Assembly: GCA_021780115.1 (NCBI GenBank)
Contig: JAJXZI010000063.1
Location: 1 to 47,838, forward strand
DNA: 47,838 nt
From: a bacterium
GTDB taxonomy: Bacteria; Verrucomicrobiota; Verrucomicrobiia; Limisphaerales; JAJXZI01
Direction of reading: 5' to 3'
Shown: positions 1-42,054 of the stretch, piece by piece
Layout: every line of letters begins with the position of its first letter
How positions within the stretch are numbered: position 1 is the stretch's first letter
Notes under the pieces: model-generated
What the model was told of the DNA's origin: nothing
Seen by the model: only the letters and a program-made list of their open reading frames with translations
Databases searched by the model: none
Program-made: the position numbers and the translations under genes

Positions 1-786
1 CAACCAGTCCGCCACCTCCACGGCGTCGCGCACGGTCAGCGCGTAGATGATCCCGCTGCCAGTGAGCGTTGGAAGCCGTTCCGCCAGCCAAGCCAGACGC
101 TCGGCCTGGCTCGGCATCCGAATTGTCTGAAGTAGGAGCGAGGGGCGGGCCAAGTCACCGCGCGAGATGGCGAGGCCGGGTCCCAGCACGGTCTGCAAAT
201 CTTCCAGCACGCGATTGTTGGCCGTGGCCGTCGTGGCCAACAGGCGAAGATTCGGCGGCAAGCTGCGCGCCAGTCTTTCGATGAAGCGATAGTGCGGACG
301 GAAATCGTGGCCCCAGTCCGAGATGCAATGCGCCTCATCCACCACCAGCAGACCGATGCGCGCCGCCACGGATGCCAGTACGACGGATCGGAAGCGCTCG
401 TTGGCTAGCCGTTCTGGCGAGATGAGGAGAATATCCACCGCATTCCGCGCAAGCTCCGCCTCAACCGCCTGCCACTCATCCTGGTTTTCCGAGTGAATCG
501 TCCGCGCCCACACACCCATACGCTCGGCGGCGGCGATCTGATTGCGCATCAAGGCGAGCAACGGCGAGATCAGCAATGCCGGGCCACCGTCCTGCTCGCG
601 CAGCAAACGGGTAGCGATGAAATAGACAAAGCTCTTTCCCCACCCAGTCTTCTGAACCACCAGCAGCCGCCCGCGCCCCTCGACGACGTGTCGGATTGCT
701 TCTTCCTGCCCAGGGCGAAAAACTGAAGTGGGAGTCTGAGTTCCTTGCCGAAGAAGCTCCAGAGCGCGGGGGGCATTGTATTCCAT
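1..786 (-). CDS. RecQ-like DEAD/DEAH-box DNA helicase (partial, N-terminal part)
   Basis: An open reading frame starts at an ATG at 786 and stays open to the window edge, giving 262 residues of the N-terminal RecA-like domain. Visible helicase motifs are a FRPGQ segment (Q-motif region), a Walker A variant QKTGWGKS, the RecQ-type motif II VVDEAHCISDWGHDFR, and motif III LLATTATA. The DEAH box followed by CISDWGHDFRPHY is characteristic of RecQ-family 3'-5' helicases. The TGWGKS P-loop (instead of TGxGKS with a small residue) resembles defence-island RecQ-like proteins more than housekeeping RecQ; this last point is inference. The gene begins 6 bp after the stop of the truncated DndC-like gene on the same strand, so the two probably share a transcript. 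The C-terminal helicase half and any accessory domains lie outside the window. Confidence 0.85.
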   Translation of the reverse strand, partial: MEYNAPRALELLRQGTQTPTSVFRPGQEEAIRHVVEGRGRLLVVQKTGWGKSFVYFIATRLLREQDGGPALLISPLLALMRNQIAAAERMGVWARTIHSENQDEWQAVEAELARNAVDILLISPERLANERFRSVVLASVAARIGLLVVDEAHCISDWGHDFRPHYRFIERLARSLPPNLRLLATTATANNRVLEDLQTVLGPGLAISRGDLARPSLLLQTIRMPSQAERLAWLAERLPTLTGSGIIYALTVRDAVEVADWL

Positions 787-792
787 GTTGGC

Positions 793-1602
793 TTAGTTCG
801 GACCATCTGCACACTTCACAGGGAACAAAGGGGGTAGTATCCTCCGCCAGGCGGAGTTCCAGTTGCCGCAGGCGGGCGTGCTGGTGACAATCTGGATAGG
901 GCACTCGCCGCCGCCGGCTTGGGAATAGAGCTTGAAGAGCGCGCGGTTGTCGCCGCCCCAAGGATTCGGATGTTGGAGCAGGTAGGCCCAGACTTCCTCC
1001 GTGCTGAGGAACTGGATCGGATTGGAAACCCAGACGCGCGGCAGGTCGGGATGCCGCGTGAGGCCGTTGCGCGTGGGGCGCTCACCGAGAGTCTGGGCGC
1101 GACTGGCGCTTTCGGCGCGGCGCGCTCCGAGATGGAGGATGGCTTCGCCCCATTGGCCCATGCGCTGCTCCACGAAGCGGTTGACCGGGTCAATCTTGAG
1201 CCGCTGCGTACACCAGCGGAAAGTGCGGTTGGGCGGCGGGTAGCCACGGCCAATGATGTTGACCCAGAAACTTTCCTCGGCGGGCGGGCGCAGGAGTTGG
1301 ACTTCGATGTTCAGGCCGTTGTCCTGGGAGAATTTTCGCATCCGGCCCAACCCCGCTTCGATCATCTCCACGATGGCCGGGATTTCCACGCGGGTGTCGG
1401 TGCAAAGGATGGCGATCTCCTTCTGGCGAGCCTCCGCTGGCACAGACAGGACAGCGTCGAAAATGAGTGACGCCAGCATCGTGCTGTCCTTGCCCCCGCT
1501 GAACCCGACGAGCCACGGGCGCGGATCGGCCAGATACAACTCGCGCAGGGACTCCCCGATTTCCTGAAAGCGGCTGGGGGCGGCGGGAAACAATTCAGAC
1601 AT
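793..1602 (-). CDS. dndC: DndC-like PAPS-reductase-family sulfurtransferase, C-terminally truncated
   Basis: The protein has 269 residues starting MSELFPAAPSRF. It carries the PP-loop WLVGFSGGKDST (about residues 31-42), then FWVNIIGRGYPPPNRTFRWCTQRLKI and the ILHLGARRAESASRA segment. These are hallmarks of DndC, the DNA phosphorothioation sulfurtransferase of the PAPS-reductase family. The sequence follows the family up to GECPIQIVTSTPACGN. In DndC this is followed by SRFGCW-C, which supplies the remaining Fe-S cysteines. Here the frame instead runs WNSAWRRILPPL and ends. Family members are roughly 500 residues, so the C-terminal half and all but the first cluster cysteine are missing. A small palindrome (CTCCGCC-A-GGCGGAG, 842-856) lies at the point of divergence, which fits a deletion or element insertion. 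The product is probably inactive in phosphorothioation unless this is a divergent short subfamily. Confidence 0.75.
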   Translation of the reverse strand: MSELFPAAPSRFQEIGESLRELYLADPRPWLVGFSGGKDSTMLASLIFDAVLSVPAEARQKEIAILCTDTRVEIPAIVEMIEAGLGRMRKFSQDNGLNIEVQLLRPPAEESFWVNIIGRGYPPPNRTFRWCTQRLKIDPVNRFVEQRMGQWGEAILHLGARRAESASRAQTLGERPTRNGLTRHPDLPRVWVSNPIQFLSTEEVWAYLLQHPNPWGGDNRALFKLYSQAGGGECPIQIVTSTPACGNWNSAWRRILPPLFPVKCADGPN

Positions 1603-2233
1603 GGGCGTCGTTGGTGCGCGTGCTCCGCACGGTGCCCCGGCGGAATTCCCTCGTTGTCGATGCGGACAGGAGCCGAAGCCACGCGGAATCAGTGGGTGTG
1701 CTGTCTCGTCAGTTCATTCCGTGTCTTCCGAACGCCGCGAGACTACCGCAGGCCGCCGTCCGCCGGCAACGGCTTTCCTCCACCGGCCTGGGCGGCCTGC
1801 GCCTCCGCCCCCCCCTCCTGACTTTCCACATGGGCAAGAGCACGCCGGGGGCGGGAGGATAACAACATGGGCCAACTGGTGATGCCGATGGAGGAATCGC
1901 CTTCGTTCTCCTTCTCGTCCGCGCAAGGGAGGATGCCACGGGCCGGAGGCCGTTTGTGCGTGCTCCGGCCCTCTTTCCGCTCGCGCCGGACAGGGAGGTG
2001 CCGATCGGGCCTCAATGCGCGGTTCATCGCCTCGAACGGCGCGGACGCGGATTGTGTTTTCGATTCTGGTTCCCAGCGGCCTGGGAGTCGGCGGGATTGG
2101 CGGAATGCCGCTCACCAACAATCCAACGCGGTTTCCGCTGAACCAGGCGTACGTGATCGGGGATGGAATGTTGGCGGCCTTTCCACCGTCGCGCGCGGCG
2201 ATTTCCCGGCTGCAGATGACGGTTTGCCGGCCG
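1603..2233. other. Intergenic region without a supportable gene
   Basis: This 631-bp stretch separates the DndC-like gene from the DinG-like helicase. Open frames exist on both strands but show low-complexity Arg/Pro/Gly composition and no recognisable motif. A plus-strand segment around 2050-2170 (…VPSGLGVGGIGGMPLTNN…) reads more protein-like but has no plausible start or family. It could be a relic. No tRNA, promoter or terminator stands out. Confidence 0.4.
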
Positions 2234-4411
2234 TCACACGATCTCCACCGGACATTTCGGCAGCGCGTCGAGGAAGGCTTGGCCGTATTTCTTCACCAAG
2301 ACGCGGTTGTCGAGCACCACGACGATGCCGGTGTCGGCCTTCGTCCGGATGAGCCGGCCGACGCCTTGGCGGAACTTCAAGATCGCCTCGGGCAGCGAAA
2401 ACTCGCTGAACGAGTTGCCGCCGCGCGCCTCGATGGCCTCGAGGCGCGCCTCGATCAGCGGATGGTCCGGCACCGCGAACGGCAGGCGCGTGATGATGAC
2501 GTTGCTCAGCGCCTCCCCCGGCACGTCCACCCCTTGCCAAAAGCTGTCCGTGCCGAACAGGACCGAGTCCACGTCCTCCTTGAACTGCTCCAGCATGGTC
2601 GAGCGCGGTGTGCCGGTGCCCTGGACGAAACACGCGATGCGGAGTTGGCGGAAGAACGGCTCCATGCGCTCGCCCAACTCCTGCATCAGCTTGTAGTTGG
2701 TGAACAGGACGAAGGCCTTGCCGTGCGTCAGGCGGACGAAATGCTCGATCCAGTGTTCCAGCGCGTCGGCATAACCCGCGTCGCGCGGATCGGGCATTTT
2801 GCTGGCGACGAACAGCTTCATCTGCCGCTCGTAGTCGAACGGCGTGCCAACCTGGAGCTGCATGGCCGATTCAGCGCCGACGCGCTTCACGAAATAACGC
2901 AGGGCCGGCGTCACGCCGGCTTGCTGGGCCGCGGGAGCGGCCGGCGGCATCGTCCTTTGCGTTGCAGCCCCGTCGGCGCTCGCGCGCTCGGCGGGCCGGT
3001 GGGACGCCGTCCCGACGCTGGTCGCCAGCGTCGCGCTCGTCATCACGATGCTCGTGTCGCTCGCGAACAGCCGGCGGCGCAGGAACTCCGCCACGTCCAC
3101 CGGCGCGGCGTTGAGGGCGAGGCTGCGCTGCGCCTTGCCGCTGCGCTCGACCCAATAGACGTGGTCCGGCGCGCTCTGGCCCAGGAACTCCGCCACTTCG
3201 TCGCGCAACTCGCCCAGGCGGCGATTGCACTCCAGCAACTCCTGCCCGATTTCCTTGTCCTCGCTGGCCTTGATCGCCTCGCTCACCGCCTCGCGCAACC
3301 GCTGGATGGGCAGGGTCACGTTGTCCGGCACCAGTTCGGCCCGGCGGATGCGCAACTCGGTCCAGTCGCGGCGCCGCCGGGGAGGCGAGCGTCCTCGCGC
3401 GCCGTGACTTTCCTCGCCGCCGGACTGCGTTTGGTGCAATTCCTCGCACGCCGTCTCGACGTGGGCGAAGAACTGGTCCGCCGCCGCGAGCAACTCCGCC
3501 ACCAGCTTGACCGCGGCCCCTTGGCGCAGCGTGGCCAGGAGTCCTTTTTCCGTGCGCGGATTCCACAGCCGGTGCAGCGCCCAGCGCACCTGCCCGCTCG
3601 ACACGCTCAGGCCGATGTGCTTCGAGGCGACATGCTCCATCTGGTGCGCCTCGTCGAAGATGACGAAATCATTCTTGAACAGGATGCCGCCGGCGACTTC
3701 CTCGTCGAGACCACCAAGCAGGGTGAAGAACAGCGTGTGGTTGACCACGAGCACGTCGGCCGCGAGAAACCGCTGCCGCGCCCGCTGGAAAAAGCAGGGC
3801 GGATGGTCCTTGGCGAACTCGGACGGATGCCCGCACAACTTTGGCGTGCAGAGTCCGCGCTCGGAGCAAACCAGCGCCCAGACCTTCGGGTCCGGCTCGG
3901 GGTCGAGGTCGGACAGGCTGCCGTCCTCGGTCGCGCGGGACCATTCGTAGAGGCGCTTCAACTCCCCGGCCTCGGAGGAGGTGAACAGATTGCCGGATTG
4001 CTGCAGGGCTTTATGGAGCCGGCGGGTGCAGAGATAATTCGCACGGCCCTTGAGCATGGTGAAACTGAACGGCGCCGGCAGAATCTGCGTCAGCATCGGC
4101 AGATCCTTCTGGGTGAGCTGCTCCTGGAGGTTGATCGTGTGCGTGGAGACGATGGCTTTCTTCTTGCGCGCGACGGCGAAGAAAATCGCCGGGATCAAGT
4201 ACGCCAGGCTCTTGCCGACGCCGGTGCCCGCCTCGACGGCCAGGTGCTCCCCGTTCACGAGCGCGCGGGCCACGGCCACCGCCATTTCCTGTTGCTGCGG
4301 GCGAAACTCGAAATTCCTGGACCGCGAGAGCAAACCGCTCGGCGAAAAAACCGCCTCGACCTGCGCGATCAGGTCGGCGCCGGCGGGTTGGTAGTCGAGG
4401 GTGCTGATCAC
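2234..4411 (-). CDS. DinG/YoaA-type (XPD-like) ATP-dependent DNA helicase
   Basis: The 725-residue protein is taken from the GTG at 4411 (VISTLDYQPAG). Further-upstream starts would run back into amtB. Walker A AGTGVGKS is at residues 61-68 and the DEAH box at 253-256 (IFDEAHQMEH). The C-terminal region has WQGVDVPGEALSNVIITRLPFAVPDHP and the arginine-finger motif QGVGRLIR. Cysteines at 128, 182, 188, 193 and 206 between the Walker motifs fit the [4Fe-4S] domain of DinG/XPD helicases, which unwind DNA 5'-3' and act on R-loops and damage intermediates (family knowledge). Two segments look like in-frame insertions: residues about 331-348 (SGGEESHGARGRSPP...) and about 465-503 (SVGTASHRPAERASAD...). 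The latter lies directly after the conserved MTSATLAT motif. Both are encoded by palindrome-rich DNA. The gene lies 94 bp downstream of amtB on the same strand. Confidence 0.9.
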   Translation of the reverse strand: MISTLDYQPAGADLIAQVEAVFSPSGLLSRSRNFEFRPQQQEMAVAVARALVNGEHLAVEAGTGVGKSLAYLIPAIFFAVARKKKAIVSTHTINLQEQLTQKDLPMLTQILPAPFSFTMLKGRANYLCTRRLHKALQQSGNLFTSSEAGELKRLYEWSRATEDGSLSDLDPEPDPKVWALVCSERGLCTPKLCGHPSEFAKDHPPCFFQRARQRFLAADVLVVNHTLFFTLLGGLDEEVAGGILFKNDFVIFDEAHQMEHVASKHIGLSVSSGQVRWALHRLWNPRTEKGLLATLRQGAAVKLVAELLAAADQFFAHVETACEELHQTQSGGEESHGARGRSPPRRRRDWTELRIRRAELVPDNVTLPIQRLREAVSEAIKASEDKEIGQELLECNRRLGELRDEVAEFLGQSAPDHVYWVERSGKAQRSLALNAAPVDVAEFLRRRLFASDTSIVMTSATLATSVGTASHRPAERASADGAATQRTMPPAAPAAQQAGVTPALRYFVKRVGAESAMQLQVGTPFDYERQMKLFVASKMPDPRDAGYADALEHWIEHFVRLTHGKAFVLFTNYKLMQELGERMEPFFRQLRIACFVQGTGTPRSTMLEQFKEDVDSVLFGTDSFWQGVDVPGEALSNVIITRLPFAVPDHPLIEARLEAIEARGGNSFSEFSLPEAILKFRQGVGRLIRTKADTGIVVVLDNRVLVKKYGQAFLDALPKCPVEIV
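2903..3019. repeat. Palindrome-rich in-frame insertion in the DinG-like helicase gene
   Basis: About 117 bp (39 codons) encode residues 465-503, a low-complexity Ala/Pro/Gln stretch between conserved MTSATLAT and LRYFVKRVG. The DNA contains a 7-bp-arm hairpin GCCGGCG-TCA-CGCCGGC (2904-2920) at one end and GGGACG-C-CGTCCC (3001-3013) at the other. Such hairpin-bounded, frame-preserving segments match those seen in purL. The exact boundaries are inferred from where family similarity stops. Confidence 0.5.
3368..3421. repeat. Second short in-frame repeat in the DinG-like helicase gene
   Basis: Residues about 331-348 (SGGEESHGARGRSPPRRR) interrupt an otherwise helical linker. The forward-strand DNA includes GCGAG-CGTC-CTCGC, a small hairpin of the type common between genes in this lineage. 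It preserves the frame. The boundaries are approximate. Confidence 0.35.
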
Positions 4412-18387: not shown

Positions 18388-18440
18388 ACACGGTTGTAAA
18401 CTCAGGCGCCGGAAGCCGCCAGCCCTTTCGCGTTCCGTCG

Positions 18441-19031
18441 TTACCCGGGGTTTCCCCTGTGCCGGCGACGGAAGGCCAGCCAGCCGGCCAAGCCCAGCGC
18501 CATCAAAGCAGTCGTGGATGGTTCGGGGCGCTCGAAGATAATGGGACCGGGTATGCTCAGCAAAGCCGGGACGGTAGGCGGTCCCAGCGGGTCAGGAACA
18601 TCCGCAGTACCGACTGCTTGCGACCACAGCAGGCTCTCGCCCCGCGAACCTGAAGCCGACGCCCAGGTCGCGGCCCCCGTCCATTCCAAGATTTGGAAGA
18701 AAGCGCTGCCGTGGGCAGGAACTCCGGGAACCACGCCATAGCCCACATCAAAGTAGCTGCCCGAACCCGGCCCCCGCGCATTCACGCCGGACGGCAAAAT
18801 GGTGAAGATCGGGCCAACCCCGGTTGAGGTGACCAAGGGAACCATCGTGTTCGCCGAGTAGCCGGCCAGCACCTCGAAAAACGTGCCGGCGGGAGCGGGA
18901 TCCAAGAAATTCCCACGGTACATTCCCATCCCGGAATCGTAGTTGTTGAGCCACACCGTTCCTTGCGCGGGCAGCCGCGCCGGAGCGAGCGCGGCGCCAA
19001 TCGCCAGGATGGCCAGGAGTGTCGTTTTCAC
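18441..19031 (-). CDS. PEP-CTERM secreted protein, tandem copy A (last in the array)
   Basis: The 196-residue protein starts at the GTG 19031 (VKTTLLAILAIGAALAPARLPAQ), a signal peptide shared with its paralogues. The mature part has GTVWLNNYDSGMGMY, FEVLAGYSAN, GPGSGSYFDVGYGVVPGVPAHGSAFFQILEWTGA, and LLWSQAVGTAD. It ends with the sorting signal PEPSTTALMALGLAGWLAFRRRHRGNPG, so it should be processed by an exosortase and exported. It is the most divergent copy (MYRGNFLDPAP, PALLSIPGPIIF). It ends soon after the Arg cluster, the normal PEP-CTERM architecture. Its GTG overlaps the stop of copy B by 4 bp. The leader AAAGGAAACCCAA before the start is shared by the array. The function is unknown. 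Confidence 0.88.
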   Translation of the reverse strand: MKTTLLAILAIGAALAPARLPAQGTVWLNNYDSGMGMYRGNFLDPAPAGTFFEVLAGYSANTMVPLVTSTGVGPIFTILPSGVNARGPGSGSYFDVGYGVVPGVPAHGSAFFQILEWTGAATWASASGSRGESLLWSQAVGTADVPDPLGPPTVPALLSIPGPIIFERPEPSTTALMALGLAGWLAFRRRHRGNPG

Positions 19032-19675
19032 TTGGGTTTCCTTTCGCGTTGGGTCGCCTCGTGTCCAGTCGCTTCGCGGCCTGATCGCTCGTTGCGGCAA
19101 CGGAAGGCCAGCAAGCCAGCGAGTCCGAGTCCCGCCAGAGCGGTGGTGGACGGCTCTGGTAGCATGAAGGCAATCCGTCCTGGAATATTGAGCGGCATGG
19201 GAGAGCCCGGTGTCGGTGGAAACGGATTGTCGGCCCTGCCGACAAGCTGGGACCAAACAGGCGTCCTACCCACATAAGGGGCAGCCCAGAAGTTGCTGGC
19301 GCCATACCAGACGAGTATTTGGAAAAAAGCTGCCCCGCCCGACGGCACGCCAGGCACGAAGCCGTAGCCGGCGTCGAAGTAACTTCCGCTCCTCGGCCCC
19401 AACGCCTCAACGCCCCCGGGCACGATGGTGTAGATGGGGCCGGCCCCAGCCGAGTTGACGAGCGGCGTCAGGGTCGTAGGCGTCGGTCCACCGAAAACCT
19501 CGACGAAGGTGCCCGCTGGCGCGGGGCCATAATACTCGGGGAGGTAGATTCCCATCCCTGAATCGTAGTTGTTCAGAAGCACCGTTCCGTTCAGGTACAC
19601 CGTCCCTTGCGCCGGCAGCCGCGCCGGAGCGAGCGCGGCGCCAATCGCCAGGATGGCCAGGAGTGTCGTTTTCAT
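19028..19675 (-). CDS. PEP-CTERM secreted protein, tandem copy B
   Basis: The 215-residue protein starts at ATG 19675, with signal peptide MKTTLLAILAIGAALAPARLPAQ. It has a short extra stretch (GTVYLNGTVLLNNYDSG) that repeats the GTV-LNN motif. The core GPRSGSYFDAGYGFVPGVPSGGAAFFQILVWYGAS and PVWSQLVGRADNPFPPTPGSP is close to copy C in its second half. PEPSTTALAGLGLAGLLAFRCRN is followed by a 20-residue tail (ERSGREATGHEATQRERKPK). That tail is translation of the repeated inter-gene leader and ends in the stop that overlaps the GTG of copy A. The two genes are therefore translationally coupled. Confidence 0.87.
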   Translation of the reverse strand: MKTTLLAILAIGAALAPARLPAQGTVYLNGTVLLNNYDSGMGIYLPEYYGPAPAGTFVEVFGGPTPTTLTPLVNSAGAGPIYTIVPGGVEALGPRSGSYFDAGYGFVPGVPSGGAAFFQILVWYGASNFWAAPYVGRTPVWSQLVGRADNPFPPTPGSPMPLNIPGRIAFMLPEPSTTALAGLGLAGLLAFRCRNERSGREATGHEATQRERKPK

Positions 19676-19728
19676 TTGGGTTTCCTTTCGCGTTGGGTCG
19701 CTTCGCTTCCAGCCGTTTCGCGGCCCGC

Positions 19729-20292
19729 TCACTCCTCGCGGCGACGGAGGAGCAGCACGCCGACGATCCCCAGCGCCGCCAGAGCGGCGGTGGACGGCTC
19801 TGGTAACACAAGGTCAAGCCGTCCTGGAATATTGAGCGGCGCGGGAGAACCCGGTGTCGGTGGAAACGGATTGTCGGCCTTGCCAACGAGCTGGGACCAA
19901 ACAGGCGTCGCGGCACCCTCGAAGCCGCTGGCGCCATACCAGGCGCGTATTTGGAAGAATCCCGTTCCCCCGGAAAGCACCCCGGGAACAGCCCCATAAC
20001 CCGCGTCGAAGTAGCTCCCGCTCCCCGGCCCGAACGCCTCCAGCCCCGCCGCTGTGATGGTGAAGACCGGGCCGGCACCGGCCGAGGTGAGAAGCGGATA
20101 GAGGTTGTACGGATTCGGCCCGCCCAAAACCTCGACGTGGGTCCCGAGCGGCGCCGGAGTGATTTCATCGGAGTAGCGGTAGATGCCGGCCCTTGAATCG
20201 TAGTTGTTCAGGAAGACCGTTCCTTGCGCCGGCAGCCGCGCCGGAGCGAGCGCGGCGGCAATCGCCAGGATGGCCAGGAGTGTCGTTTTCAC
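19729..20292 (-). CDS. PEP-CTERM secreted protein, tandem copy C (mosaic)
   Basis: The 187-residue protein starts at GTG 20292. Residues 2 to about 105 match copy D except for one substitution (IYRYSDE against IYLYSDE). The underlying 298 bp (19994-20291) differ from 20626-20923 at only two positions. The second half (PVWSQLVGKADNPFPPTPGSPAPLNIPGR) instead matches copy B. It ends PEPSTAALAALGIVGVLLLRRREE with a regular stop, so unlike B, D and E it carries no tail and leaves a 53-bp gap before copy B. The pattern indicates recombination or gene conversion between neighbours. Confidence 0.87.
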   Translation of the reverse strand: MKTTLLAILAIAAALAPARLPAQGTVFLNNYDSRAGIYRYSDEITPAPLGTHVEVLGGPNPYNLYPLLTSAGAGPVFTITAAGLEAFGPGSGSYFDAGYGAVPGVLSGGTGFFQIRAWYGASGFEGAATPVWSQLVGKADNPFPPTPGSPAPLNIPGRLDLVLPEPSTAALAALGIVGVLLLRRREE

Positions 20293-20924
20293 TTGGGTTT
20301 CCTTTCGCGTTGGGTCGCCTCGTTTCCAGCCGCTTCGCGGCTCGCTCGCTCCTCGCGGCGACGGAGGACCAGCAAACCAGCGAGTCCCAACCCTGCCAGG
20401 GCGGTTGTTGACGGTTCGGGCACCCAGAGATCGATCCGCCATACTGGAATTTTCAAAGGAACGGCCAAACCCGGTGTGGGGGGTGGTCCCGTGTCGGCGG
20501 TGCCAACGCCCTGGGACCAGACCGGGGAGAATCCCCGTAAATCGGCCCCGACGAACGAGTCCGCCCCCCACCAAGCGAGAACCTCGAAGAACGCCATTCC
20601 ACTGGACGGCACGCCGGGGACCGCGCCATAACCCGCGTCGAAGTAGCTCCCGCTCCCCGGCCCGAACGCCTCCAGCCCCGCCGCGGTGATGGTGAAGACC
20701 GGGCCGGCACCGGCCGAGGTGAGAAGCGGATAGAGGTTGTACGGATTCGGCCCGCCCAAAACCTCGACGTGGGTCCCGAGCGGCGCCGGAGTGATTTCAT
20801 CGGAGTAGAGGTAGATGCCGGCCCTTGAATCGTAGTTGTTCAGGAAGACCGTTCCTTGCGCCGGCAGCCGCGCCGGAGCGAGCGCGGCGGCAATCGCCAG
20901 GATGGCCAGGAGTGTCGTTTTCAT
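20289..20924 (-). CDS. PEP-CTERM secreted protein, tandem copy D
   Basis: The 211-residue protein starts at ATG 20924 and overlaps the stop of copy E by 4 bp. The signal peptide is MKTTLLAILAIAAALAPARLPAQ. The core GTVFLNNYDSRAGIYLYSDE, THVEVLGGPNPYNLYPLL and GPGSGSYFDAGYGAVPGVPSS is followed by a unique segment, AFFEVLAWWGADSFVGADLRG. Then come PVWSQGVGTADTGPPPTPG and PEPSTTALAGLGLAGLLVLRRREE. A tail RASREAAGNEATQRERKPK, read from the inter-gene leader, ends in the stop overlapping the GTG of copy C. Confidence 0.87.
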   Translation of the reverse strand: MKTTLLAILAIAAALAPARLPAQGTVFLNNYDSRAGIYLYSDEITPAPLGTHVEVLGGPNPYNLYPLLTSAGAGPVFTITAAGLEAFGPGSGSYFDAGYGAVPGVPSSGMAFFEVLAWWGADSFVGADLRGFSPVWSQGVGTADTGPPPTPGLAVPLKIPVWRIDLWVPEPSTTALAGLGLAGLLVLRRREERASREAAGNEATQRERKPK

Positions 20925-21556
20925 TTGGGTTTCCTTTCGCGTTGGGTCGCTTCGCTTCCAGCCGTTTCGCGGCCCGCTCGCTCCTCACGGCGCCGGGAAA
21001 CCAGCAAGCCAGCGAGTCCGAGAGCCGCCAAAGCAATCGCGGACGGCTCAGGAACCCACATACTCAACCGTGTTTCGGGGATATTCAGGGAGACGGCCAT
21101 GCCAGGCGTCGGCGGCGGTCCCGCGTCGGCCGTGCCAACGCGCTGGGACCAAACCGCAGTGGAACCCTGAAGCGGGGCTGCGGAGAAGTCGCTCGCACCA
21201 TACCAGGCGCGGACTTGGAAGAACCCTGTTCCGCCGGACGGCACACCGGGGACCGCGGCATATCCAGCATCGAAATAGCTTCCGCTGCCTGGACCGAGCG
21301 CCTCCACTCCCCCAGTGGTGATGGTGAAGATTGGGCTTCCGCCAGCCGAGTTGACGAGGGGCCACAGCGCCGCTTGGCTTGGCCCGCCGAGGACTTCGAC
21401 ATAAGTACCCGGGAGCGCTGGGCGATCCTCATCCGGATAAATGTAAATCCCCATTCTTGAATCGTAGTTGTTCAGGAACACCGTCCCTTGCGCGGGCAGT
21501 CTGGCCGGCGCGAGCGACGCCGCGAGGGCCAGTATTGCCAGGAGTGTCGTTTTCAT
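20921..21556 (-). CDS. PEP-CTERM secreted protein, tandem copy E (first in the array)
   Basis: The 211-residue protein starts at ATG 21556 behind an AAAGGATCCC ribosome-binding region. The signal peptide is MKTTLLAILALAASLAPARLPAQ. The core GTVFLNNYDSRMGIYIYPDEDRP, YVEVLGGPSQAALWPLV, GPGSGSYFDAGYAAVPGVPSGGTGFFQVRAWYGAS and AVWSQRVGTADAGPPPTPG is most like copy D in its last third. The sorting signal PEPSAIALAALGLAGLLVSRRREE is followed by an 18-residue tail. This is the promoter-proximal gene of the five-gene array and lies downstream of a terminator that isolates it from the cytochrome gene. Confidence 0.87.
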   Translation of the reverse strand: MKTTLLAILALAASLAPARLPAQGTVFLNNYDSRMGIYIYPDEDRPALPGTYVEVLGGPSQAALWPLVNSAGGSPIFTITTGGVEALGPGSGSYFDAGYAAVPGVPSGGTGFFQVRAWYGASDFSAAPLQGSTAVWSQRVGTADAGPPPTPGMAVSLNIPETRLSMWVPEPSAIALAALGLAGLLVSRRREERAGRETAGSEATQRERKPK

Positions 21557-21644
21557 TTGGGATCCTTTCGGTGGGGCTTCGTTCTCTGGTGCCGCGGCGT
21601 GCGATCCGCCGGGTCCAGGGACCGAACCCGTTTTCAACGCTGCC

Positions 21645-21673: not shown

Positions 21674-21731
21674 GCATGAAACAGTTGATCGTGTTGTTGG
21701 CCCGGGGCGCGGGCGGCCGGCCGCGAAAGCA

Positions 21732-21760
21732 AAACCCCTCCGCGCGCGGCGGAGGGGTTT
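21732..21760 (-). terminator. Strong intrinsic terminator after the cytochrome gene
   Basis: AAACCCCTCCGC and GCGGAGGGGTTT form a 12-bp stem around a 5-nt GC loop. It lies 42-70 bp past the stop of the multihaem cytochrome in its direction of transcription and before the PEP-CTERM array. The A/T ends let it work in either direction. Confidence 0.8.
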
Positions 21761-21801
21761 GCGAGGAACGATCTGACGGGCTTCTTATGAAGCCTCAACG
21801 G

Positions 21802-24024
21802 CTACGGACCGAGGACCACGCGGTAGAACTGCTGCGCGTTGGACCGCGTCGGCGTCACGTAGCTCATGGAGTTGCCCGTGCCGGTGATCGGGCTGCCGAT
21901 GTTCTGCCAGCCGCCGCCGAGCGACGAAATGGCCTGGAGTTGGTAGGTCTTGCCCGCGTCCGTGTTGAACGCGATCTCGGCAGCCGTGTAGATGGTGATG
22001 GCGTTGGTGCCGGCCGGATTGACGACATCTTTGCCGTCGGCCCACACGACGCCGCCGGGGACGGCCACGCCGGGCACCATCGGATCCAAGCCCAGGGCGT
22101 ACTTGAGCCAGTTGGGCACGCCGTCGCCCGCCGGGGTGGCGTTGGGAGCGGCGTTCGGGCTGGTCAGCGAGCCGAAGTATTGGAGCACCCAGGCATCGGG
22201 CAAACCGCCGGCCGCGGACACGCCCGTCAGGTTGGCAATGGAGGCCTTGAGCAGGCCCACGGCGTAGGCGGTGTTGTGAATGCCGTGGCTGCCATCGTTC
22301 TGCACGAACAGCCAGTTGTAAGCCGCCTCCAATTGGGGCCGCGTCCAAGTGCTGTCGATGCTGAGGGACGACTGGACCTGTCCGCCCGGCGGCAACAGCG
22401 TGGACAACTTGTCCATGAGATGCTGGACCTCGGTCTGCACGCCTTCGATCACGCCGTCGCCATTGTAGTCCTGCAGCGGGAAGTCGAAGCTCGTGACCTG
22501 CGGGCCGTGGCAGTTCTGGCAAGCGGCGACCAAGTCAACCGAGTTGGTGGCGTTGCTCCAACCGACCTTGAAGGTGTGGCCGCCCGCCTGCAAGAAGCTC
22601 GGGTCGCCGACGGCTACCGTCTGCATGTGGCAGGTGACGCAGGTGTCGCCGACGGCCGTGCGGTGGGCGGAACTGGGAAGGGTCTGGCCGTAGGTGAAGC
22701 CGTTGACGCCCTCGATCATGTCGCCTTGCGGTCCATGATGCGGGCCGAAATAGGCGCTGCCCTTGGAAGTCGCCGCATAGACCGCCGCGTTTTGCCGGGC
22801 GTGGTGGCAGTTCATGCACAGGGTCCCCATGCCGGCGTTGGTGACGGTGGTGCCATCCATAAAGGTCACCGAGGCCAGGGTCCGGATCAGATGCACGTTG
22901 TTAGTCGGCACAGTCTGGCCATGCGGTTCGTGGCAGGTCTGGCATCCGATCGCGCTGTAAATCGTGTTCGTCGTGGCTTCTCCCCGGCTGAGGAAGCCGT
23001 TGCCGGTGTGGCAGATCACGCAACTGGCGTTCCCGGCGGGATCGCGGGTGGTCGTTGCGTGCAGGGAGTTATACCACTCCGTCCCCTTGATGTGGTGGGT
23101 CGGGGCGTCGTGGCATTGGTTGCAGTCGCCCGAACTGACGGTGCGCGAGATACTGGGCCAAGCTGCGACGTTCGTGGCGCCAAGCAACTTCGCGTGTTCG
23201 CTGCCAGGCCCGTGGCAGTTTTCGCACTGGATGTTGGCGAGACTGGCAAGCTGGGGATAGTTGGTCTGCATGCTCGCCCAGTTGCCGTTGGTCAAGACCG
23301 TGGGGAAAGTCCAACCAAGCTGCTTGGCGACGTCGTCAAACCCGCCATCGACCGCGTTGGTGTTGGTGTCATAGCCGGCGGTGTGACACTGAAGACAGGA
23401 CTGGCTGTAATGGCCCAGGATGCCATCAATGCCTTGGGAGAAGATGTGCGCGTGGGCGGTTTGGGACCAAGGCACCACTTTGTTCTGTGCGATTTCGCCG
23501 CCGCTATGGCAGAGGGCGCAGGTGTTAACGCCCATATAGGTGCCGGCCGTGATGGTCCGGCTCACGTTGGTCGAGTCGGTCGCGGTCGAGATCGTCGCGA
23601 TCACTGTATATTTTCCCGCGAGGTCCGGCCGGAGGAGCATGCGAGCAGCCACCTGGGAAACCAGCCGGTCCGCCGGTTCGTACACCGGGACGTTGGTTCC
23701 CAGCGGACTGGGTTGCAGCGTGGCGGCGGACCCAGGCGGGGTATTGGTCAGGAGCCAAGTCACGCTGACGGCGTTGGTCAGGGCAATGTTCACGTCTGCC
23801 TCCAGATACACCGGCGTGCCAATGCCTACGGTGGACAACCCTCCCGAGGTTTCCGTGCCGGTGGGCAGCTTGTAATTTGTAACATTCCCGGGAGTCACTG
23901 GGCGCAACACCAACTGGCCCTGGAGGGCGGTTTGCGCCTTCGCGGTTGTCGCGGCCCCCGTGGCCAACAGCACGACTGCCAGGAGGCAAGTCGGCGCTCT
24001 TCGGATCGAGGTTTTCATCTTCAT
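21802..24024 (-). CDS. Secreted nine-haem c-type cytochrome with C-terminal surface/sorting-like domain
   Basis: The 740-residue protein is taken from MKMKTSIRRAPTCLLAVVLLATGAATTAKAQ, a clear signal peptide. Residues 31-160 are beta-rich and haem-free. Nine CXXCH motifs follow at about 169, 210, 267, 301, 335, 361, 403, 462 and 502, so nine covalent haems are expected. Additional His residues (for example ARQ after MNCHH, GPHHGP, TAHAHIF) could supply distal ligands. The layout resembles doubled-CXXCH/multihaem cytochromes used in extracellular electron transfer. After residue 600 comes a verrucomicrobial-style region GDGVPNWLKYALGLDP and YQLQAISS...QQFYRVVLGP, seen in exported proteins of the group. 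It lies next to hemA, which supplies haem precursors. The electron partners are unknown. Confidence 0.9.
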   Translation of the reverse strand: MKMKTSIRRAPTCLLAVVLLATGAATTAKAQTALQGQLVLRPVTPGNVTNYKLPTGTETSGGLSTVGIGTPVYLEADVNIALTNAVSVTWLLTNTPPGSAATLQPSPLGTNVPVYEPADRLVSQVAARMLLRPDLAGKYTVIATISTATDSTNVSRTITAGTYMGVNTCALCHSGGEIAQNKVVPWSQTAHAHIFSQGIDGILGHYSQSCLQCHTAGYDTNTNAVDGGFDDVAKQLGWTFPTVLTNGNWASMQTNYPQLASLANIQCENCHGPGSEHAKLLGATNVAAWPSISRTVSSGDCNQCHDAPTHHIKGTEWYNSLHATTTRDPAGNASCVICHTGNGFLSRGEATTNTIYSAIGCQTCHEPHGQTVPTNNVHLIRTLASVTFMDGTTVTNAGMGTLCMNCHHARQNAAVYAATSKGSAYFGPHHGPQGDMIEGVNGFTYGQTLPSSAHRTAVGDTCVTCHMQTVAVGDPSFLQAGGHTFKVGWSNATNSVDLVAACQNCHGPQVTSFDFPLQDYNGDGVIEGVQTEVQHLMDKLSTLLPPGGQVQSSLSIDSTWTRPQLEAAYNWLFVQNDGSHGIHNTAYAVGLLKASIANLTGVSAAGGLPDAWVLQYFGSLTSPNAAPNATPAGDGVPNWLKYALGLDPMVPGVAVPGGVVWADGKDVVNPAGTNAITIYTAAEIAFNTDAGKTYQLQAISSLGGGWQNIGSPITGTGNSMSYVTPTRSNAQQFYRVVLGP

Positions 24025-24238
24025 AGTTGCACTGTTGAGTTTTGAACGTTCACCGTCACGCGTACTAGGTTGGATACTAAAAGAACGTGGTCTGGGAGCT
24101 ATCCCTCCGTTGGCCAATGCCAGCCATCAATTGCCTCAGCACATAAGACGCGCGGGGCATGCGGCCATCGCTATGAGTGATGGACCTATTAAGTCCTTCC
24201 GATTCATGGATGAGATTCGCCGGGCGCATAGGAGGACA

Positions 24239-40662: not shown

Positions 40663-41376
40663 GTGAACTTCGCCGTCCTCCAATTCCCCGGTTCCAATTG
40701 CGACCAGGATGCCGTCCACGTCCTGCGGAACGTGCTCGGCCAGTCCGCCCGCCTTCTCTGGCACAAGGAATCCTCGCTCGGTGGCACCGACGCGGTGATC
40801 GTGCCTGGCGGTTTCAGCTATGGCGATTACCTGCGCACCGGCGCCATCGCACGGTTCAGCCCGGTGATGCAGGCGGTGCAGCAGTTCGCCGCCAACGGCG
40901 GGCTGGTGCTGGGCATCTGCAACGGGTTCCAGATACTCTGCGAAGCGGGCCTGCTGCCCGGCGCGCTCGTCCGCAACCGCTCGCTCCAGTTCCGCTGCGA
41001 ACACATCTTCCTGAAGACCGCCACCACCGACTCGCCGTTCACCAACCGGACGCCCGCCGACAAGTTGCTCCGCATACCCATTGCTCACGGCGAAGGCAGC
41101 TATTTCGCCGACGAAGCGACGCTGGCGGAATTGCAGGCGAAGCGCCAAATCCTCTGGCAATACTGCTCTGCCCAAAGCGAGTTGACTGAGGAGTCGAATC
41201 CAAATGGCTCGCTGCTGAACATCGCGGGCGTCTGCAACGAGCGGCGCAACGTCGCCGGCCTGATGCCGCATCCCGAGCGCGCCAGCGAACCGCTGCTCGG
41301 CAGCGACGACGGCCGGCTGGTCTTTGAGAGCATGATCGCGGCGCTGGAAACAAAACACCTCGCGCCGGCCGCGTGA
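40663..41376 (+). CDS. purQ: Phosphoribosylformylglycinamidine synthase glutaminase subunit PurQ
   Basis: The 237-residue protein is taken from the GTG giving [16 protein letters not shown], the conserved PurQ start. An ATG at 40582 would add 27 non-conserved residues. The class I amidotransferase triad is Cys86 ([12 protein letters not shown]) with His203 and Glu205 ([10 protein letters not shown]). It supplies ammonia from glutamine to PurL. Its last 25 conserved residues ([25 protein letters not shown]) recur, 88% identical in DNA, beyond the toxin-antitoxin cassette at 41935-42009. Confidence 0.93.
41272..41346 (+). repeat. Direct repeat, upstream copy (inside purQ 3' end)
   Basis: The 75 bp encoding [25 protein letters not shown] match 41935-42009 at 66 of 75 positions. 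Most differences are synonymous. The pair brackets the HigBA-type cassette. Confidence 0.9.
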
Positions 41377-41901: not shown

Positions 41902-42054
41902 ATGAAGCAAACGCAAACCAACCTGACGTGGCTTCCCGAACGCGCCAGCAAACCACTGCTCGGCAGCGACGGCGGGCGGCTGATCTTTGAAAGTATGATC
42001 GCGGCGCTCCGGAACAAGTTTGCCGCGCCCCTCGCTTATCTCTTTTGTCCATGA
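41902..42054 (+). pseudogene. Detached second copy of the purQ 3' end, still an open 50-codon frame
   Basis: An ATG one base after the antitoxin stop opens a frame of 50 codons. From residue 12 it reads [25 protein letters not shown], the C-terminal end of PurQ, and then [13 protein letters not shown]. Its TGA overlaps the purL ATG (ATGA). It lacks the glutaminase active site and so is not functional as PurQ. It may be translated and couple the antitoxin to purL. Confidence 0.75.
41935..42009 (+). repeat. Direct repeat, downstream copy (detached purQ 3' end)
   Basis: The partner of 41272-41346, 66/75 identical, 663 bp further on. The encoded peptide differs at three of 25 residues (E to K, D to G, V to I), while six differences are silent. 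Confidence 0.9.

Follow-up and report, generated by a model that had tools for sequence, protein, structure and literature searches.

Five tandem PEP-CTERM genes and their junctions

Gene overlaps of 4 nt are often taken as signs of selected translational coupling, which raises the question of what such overlaps mean when they link the copies of a tandemly repeated gene. The case studied here lies in contig C331 (47,838 nt, the whole stretch of DNA that was analysed, referred to below as the window) of a draft metagenome bin. The initial annotation described five near-identical, secreted and exosortase-sorted PEP-CTERM proteins, encoded head-to-tail on the minus strand by what looked like one strictly coupled polycistron, and suggested that they are made in a fixed ratio, perhaps as interchangeable subunits of an extracellular matrix. 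ORF analysis located five PEP-CTERM genes in this arrangement at 21556-18441, in agreement with the annotated coordinates. The features of the array are as follows:

21557-21640, minus strand: array leader, homologous to the inter-copy tails; AAGGA at 21567-21563
21556-20921, minus strand: copy E, PEP-CTERM protein, 211 aa; first copy, with a 21-aa tail beyond RRR
20924-20289, minus strand: copy D, PEP-CTERM protein, 211 aa; ATG start overlapping the stop of E
20292-19729, minus strand: copy C, PEP-CTERM protein, 187 aa; GTG start overlapping the stop of D, early TGA stop
19728-19676, minus strand: C/B spacer, 53 nt; matches the last part of the E tail
19675-19028, minus strand: copy B, PEP-CTERM protein, 215 aa
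19031-18441, minus strand: copy A, PEP-CTERM protein, 196 aa; GTG start overlapping the stop of B
20924-20921, minus strand: E/D overlap, ATGA
20292-20289, minus strand: D/C overlap, GTGA
19031-19028, minus strand: B/A overlap, GTGA
20848-20950, minus strand: E/D junction block (tail, RBS, signal peptide), 98% identical to the query; AAGGA at 20936-20932
20216-20318, minus strand: D/C junction block, 99% identical to the query; RBS at 20304-20300
19599-19701, minus strand: C/B junction block, 98% identical to the query; RBS at 19687-19683
18955-19057, minus strand: B/A junction block, 99% identical to the query; RBS at 19043-19039

The 4-base overlaps at E/D, D/C and B/A are exact, and the overlapping start belongs, as annotated, to (M/V)KTTLLAILA, KTTLLAILA being found after M or V at the beginning of all five proteins. 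One of the four junctions, C/B, has no overlap and instead a gap of 53 nt. The tandem repeat of the array is well above chance expectation. The start-to-start distances (632, 632, 617, and 644 nt) are each 2 mod 3, and the within-gene indels between copies, including a 6-codon insertion in copy B that arose by local duplication close to the mature N-terminus, are all multiples of three, so that the phase between neighbours is inherited. In all copies, an AAGGA element is located 6-7 nt before the start. To compare the junctions, a 103-nt query across tail, RBS, and signal peptide was searched against the genome. It matched the four internal junctions with 98-99% identity and the 5' end of the array with 80% identity, and was not found elsewhere in the genome. 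As the block is present only in the array, an origin of the junctions from a dispersed repeat was rejected.

Sorting signals and predicted function

All five copies scored above the gathering score of 20.7 for PF07589 (Pfam), and the sequence MKTTLLAILAIxAALAPARLPAQ, present in all copies, resembles a signal peptide as judged by inspection only. The genome contains approximately 20 PEP-CTERM matches and two matches to the EpsH-family exosortase model TIGR02602 above the NCBIfam cut-off, on contigs C75 and C169. The PEP-CTERM/exosortase (EpsH) sorting system has been described by Haft et al. 2006 (PMC1569441). Like the proteins of those systems, the array proteins combine an apparent N-terminal signal peptide with a PEP motif, a transmembrane stretch and an arginine cluster, and there are likewise many copies per genome together with an exosortase in the same genome; what differs is the five-copy tandem array, with three ORFs running 21 residues past the arginine cluster. 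With PF07589 on all five copies and two EpsH-family genes, the annotated secretion and sorting by exosortase is probable, and a surface or extracellular-matrix role would follow from the PEP-CTERM/exosortase association (PMC1569441). The core appears as a beta-rich domain in a structure predicted with low to modest confidence (mean pLDDT 68), and the solved structures in the PDB gave no significant match for the core, either by structure or by sequence. An assignment as flocculation protein PepA (NF033554) was rejected, with at most 27 bits against an equivalog cut-off of 80, mostly contributed by the sorting signal.

The number of residues beyond the basic cluster is 2 in copy C, 6 in copy A, and 21 in copies E, D, and B. 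Other PEP-CTERM genes of the genome have 1-32 residues at this position, and since several PEP-CTERM genes that stand singly have long tails (14-32 aa) as well, the length of a tail is in itself hardly informative. In genome G000, groups of PEP-CTERM genes on contigs C102, C106, and C68, and on C314, C212, and C52, share near-identical sorting signals (PEPGGAALFLLG..SVRRR and PEPSVFA.GLLGGSLLALGRRR) and differ in their tails (6-32 aa), which points to a labile tail length genome-wide. The array also illustrates how run-on tails may be tolerated by a C-terminal sorting signal, which is expected to be cleaved off following export.

Origin of the overlaps

Alignment of the leader of copy E with the inter-copy tails gave a score of 39, which was reached by 1 of 500 shuffles. 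Because of this homology, translated leader is the best interpretation of the tails (EERAGRETAGSEATQRERKPK and relatives). Past the stop of copy C, the spacer is identical to the E tail except for a change of CGA to TGA, thus a single nonsense mutation is sufficient to make or break an overlap. Moreover, every copy starts with M-K (RTGAAA), so that the TGA within RTGA ends any read-through in the corresponding phase. As pointed out by Fonseca et al. 2013, after extension of an upstream gene a 4-nt overlap requires only an A following the start codon (PMC3887535). The array resembles these neutral 3'-extension overlaps in that the upstream ORF is extended to the TGA within the next RTGA, and differs from them in that the overlap has been multiplied by tandem duplication instead of originating separately each time. 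Since the repeat units are homologous, the three overlaps are not independent and would amount to about one evolutionary event, for which the chance of the right phase was roughly one in three.

Based on these data, we consider it likely that the locus reflects a lineage-specific tandem amplification of one exosortase-sorted surface-protein gene, with the overlaps as a by-product of duplication. The amplified unit would consist of leader and gene, and the frame of the upstream copy would continue through the duplicated leader, past the basic cluster, as a 21-residue tail that is probably dispensable, lying beyond the expected exosortase cleavage site. This frame would end at the TGA inside the RTGAAA start of the next copy, which would automatically generate the 4-nt overlap. 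The locus is a real, intact and probably recombining tandem PEP-CTERM array. With its overlaps read most simply in this manner, it is fairly ordinary in itself, and it offers a clear small example of how 4-nt overlaps can arise and multiply through duplication alone.

Tandem copies in related genomes

At E <= 1e-8, and scoring only the best candidates per genome, the family was found in 57 of the 293 genomes that were sampled from the order. The overlap architecture was searched for in these relatives and was absent from all of the ~10 sampled tandem pairs, a small sample in which start codons were chosen by eye. The tandem PEP-CTERM pair of G073 (L065) belongs to the same family and, like the array, is arranged head to tail with a duplicated leader containing an SD. 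However, it arose by an independent duplication (100/100 support), has a TAA stop and an 18-nt gap, and lacks the overlap. The copies in G107, G191, and G032 are spaced, those on contig C107 of G036 lie close together with gaps of ~3 and 13 nt, and PEP-CTERM neighbours in G007 and G018 are likewise without overlap. On another contig of G036 (C55; L071, 2488-4986), the beta-rich domain is repeated six times in one open frame of 1431 residues, which shows that in-frame fusion is a further possible route to amplification of this domain.

Transcription and translational coupling

Of the single polycistron originally proposed, co-transcription holds up as probable, given the common strand and the lack of a convincing terminator between copies. 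A terminator pattern scan returned only one weak terminator-like site, located inside copy A, fewer than in shuffled sequences; a pattern scan for sigma-70-like promoters found none, and Rfam gave no regulatory RNA match. One transcript across the array is likely. A further hairpin, missed by the terminator scan, is present upstream of the array:

21722-21760, minus strand: hairpin resembling a terminator, with T-rich tail; located 3' of the upstream multihaem cytochrome gene

The surrounding region (21715-21775) folds with -27.5 kcal/mol (z -1.5), and the hairpin suggests that the array is its own transcription unit.

An alternative explanation for the overlaps is that they are maintained by selection, with terminating ribosomes reinitiating on the next copy so that interchangeable matrix subunits are made in fixed ratios. 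The three ATGA/GTGA junctions, each with the SD inside the upstream ORF, speak for this, and such overlaps were coupled in the gene pairs tested in E. coli and Haloferax and are overrepresented in genes for subunits of heteromeric complexes (PMC6728339, PMC10666635). Retention of the overlap at 3 of the 4 junctions would also be predicted by selection for coupling. However, reinitiation drops almost to nothing at a distance of ~20 nt (PMC10666635), so that C/B, with its 53 nt, should not couple by this route, and the three overlaps count as one feature that was duplicated. For strict coupling in E. coli, masking of the downstream start by RNA structure has been proposed as explanation (PMC6728339), whereas folding of the junctions revealed no excess of RNA structure over shuffled sequences (z -0.06 to 1.3). 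Furthermore, 4-nt overlaps are absent from the tandem pairs sampled in relatives, and equal output would require a coupling efficiency of 100% (PMC6728339). Selection for coupled, fixed-ratio synthesis is therefore an unlikely explanation. Of the annotated strict coupling, a local and partial form at E/D, D/C, and B/A is plausible, but not strict coupling along the array, given the C/B gap. The fixed ratio is not supported, given this same gap, the absence of excess RNA structure hiding the starts, the mechanical origin of the overlap from RTGAAA after extension of the upstream ORF, the lack of this architecture in the sampled relatives, and the AAGGA SD that each copy has for itself, which, at 6-7 nt from the start, enables each copy to initiate alone. 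In the duplication scenario that we favour, a single transcript would be translated with each copy initiating from its own SD, local reinitiation would add to this at E/D, D/C, and B/A, and the array would yield beta-rich extracellular proteins that are related to each other, not a fixed-stoichiometry complex.

Sequence divergence and probable recombination between copies

The description of the copies as near-identical applies to the signal peptide and junction only, whereas the mature cores are 53-81% identical to that of D. A position-wise comparison along the unit showed core identities between copies that are often 50-70%, with copy A having the most divergent core of the five. By contrast, identity between D, C, B, and A reaches 96-98% in the initial 60 nt (signal peptide), and E, D, C, and B share 85-98% identity in their final 60 nt. 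Synonymous divergence follows the same pattern: among D, C, B, and A, dS in the signal peptide is 0-0.05, whereas in the core it is mostly 1.0-2.4, with lower values for D/C (0.35) and C/B (0.62) because C is a mosaic. Copy C is 98-100% identical to D over its first 300 nt, whereas within part of its 3' third B is the closest copy (82-92%), and D and C have a common run of 73 polymorphic sites (permutation p 0.0002). The signal peptide of E is almost the same protein, yet its dS towards the other copies is 0.7-0.9, thus protein sequence does not impose the identity in the other copies, and neither, probably, does DNA constraint. Recent homogenisation by recombination fits best with the signal-peptide identity of D, C, B, and A.

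Tandem gene families are known to be homogenised through unequal crossover or gene conversion. The array has in common with such families its mosaic copies and identical patches in an otherwise diverged sequence, and differs in that identity is concentrated in junction, RBS, and signal peptide. The near-identical junctions, together with copy C as a D/B mosaic, point to either of these processes. Homologous recombination at the junction repeats probably maintains a uniform RBS and secretion signal, whereas the cores, under purifying selection, have diverged. The dN/dS of the cores is 0.15-0.37, and such purifying selection says that the copies would make working proteins. Differences in the tails are mostly amino-acid-changing, with a number of codons that is too small to test selection firmly. 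A more far-reaching interpretation is that recombination at the junction repeats shuffles the variable mature domains while the RBS/signal-peptide module in front of them stays constant, which would make the array a standing device for diversifying surface proteins and their number between cells or strains. We regard this as quite unlikely. If the copies do recombine, the array would show how surface proteins diversify in a little-studied bacterial lineage.

Credibility of the assembly

Since the bin is a draft of 344 contigs (86% complete) from short-read metagenome data, mosaic structure and repeat number might be partly an assembly artefact. Among the searched contigs, close relatives were limited to one near-identical contig (L025, JAJXTA010000522.1; also G225:C469), of which positions 1-3628 are 99.945% identical to window positions 24699-21072. 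Its bin is assigned to a different family within the order, and the contig probably derives from the same species and was misbinned. This contig ends inside copy E, ~95 nt before the first junction repeat, which speaks for such an artefact. However, exact repeats between copies reach at most 123 nt, a length that could be spanned by reads of ~150 nt, the differing positions are located between the exact-repeat runs, and the ORFs are all intact. An assembly artefact is therefore very unlikely, and judging from the length of the exact repeats the assembly appears credible, with an array length that is draft-based.

Neighbourhood of the array

Directly upstream of the array lies a gene for a multihaem cytochrome-like protein (21802-24117, minus strand) of 771 aa, with nine CXXCH motifs counted by eye. 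Downstream of copy A, at 18400-18440 on the minus strand, the sequence GAACGCGAAAGGG is similar to the junction leader CAACGCGAAAGGA, and this stretch is possibly the remnant of a lost sixth copy. Elsewhere in the window there is a direct repeat of 87 nt (41259-41345 and 41922-42008, 663 nt apart), 86% identical and unrelated to the array.
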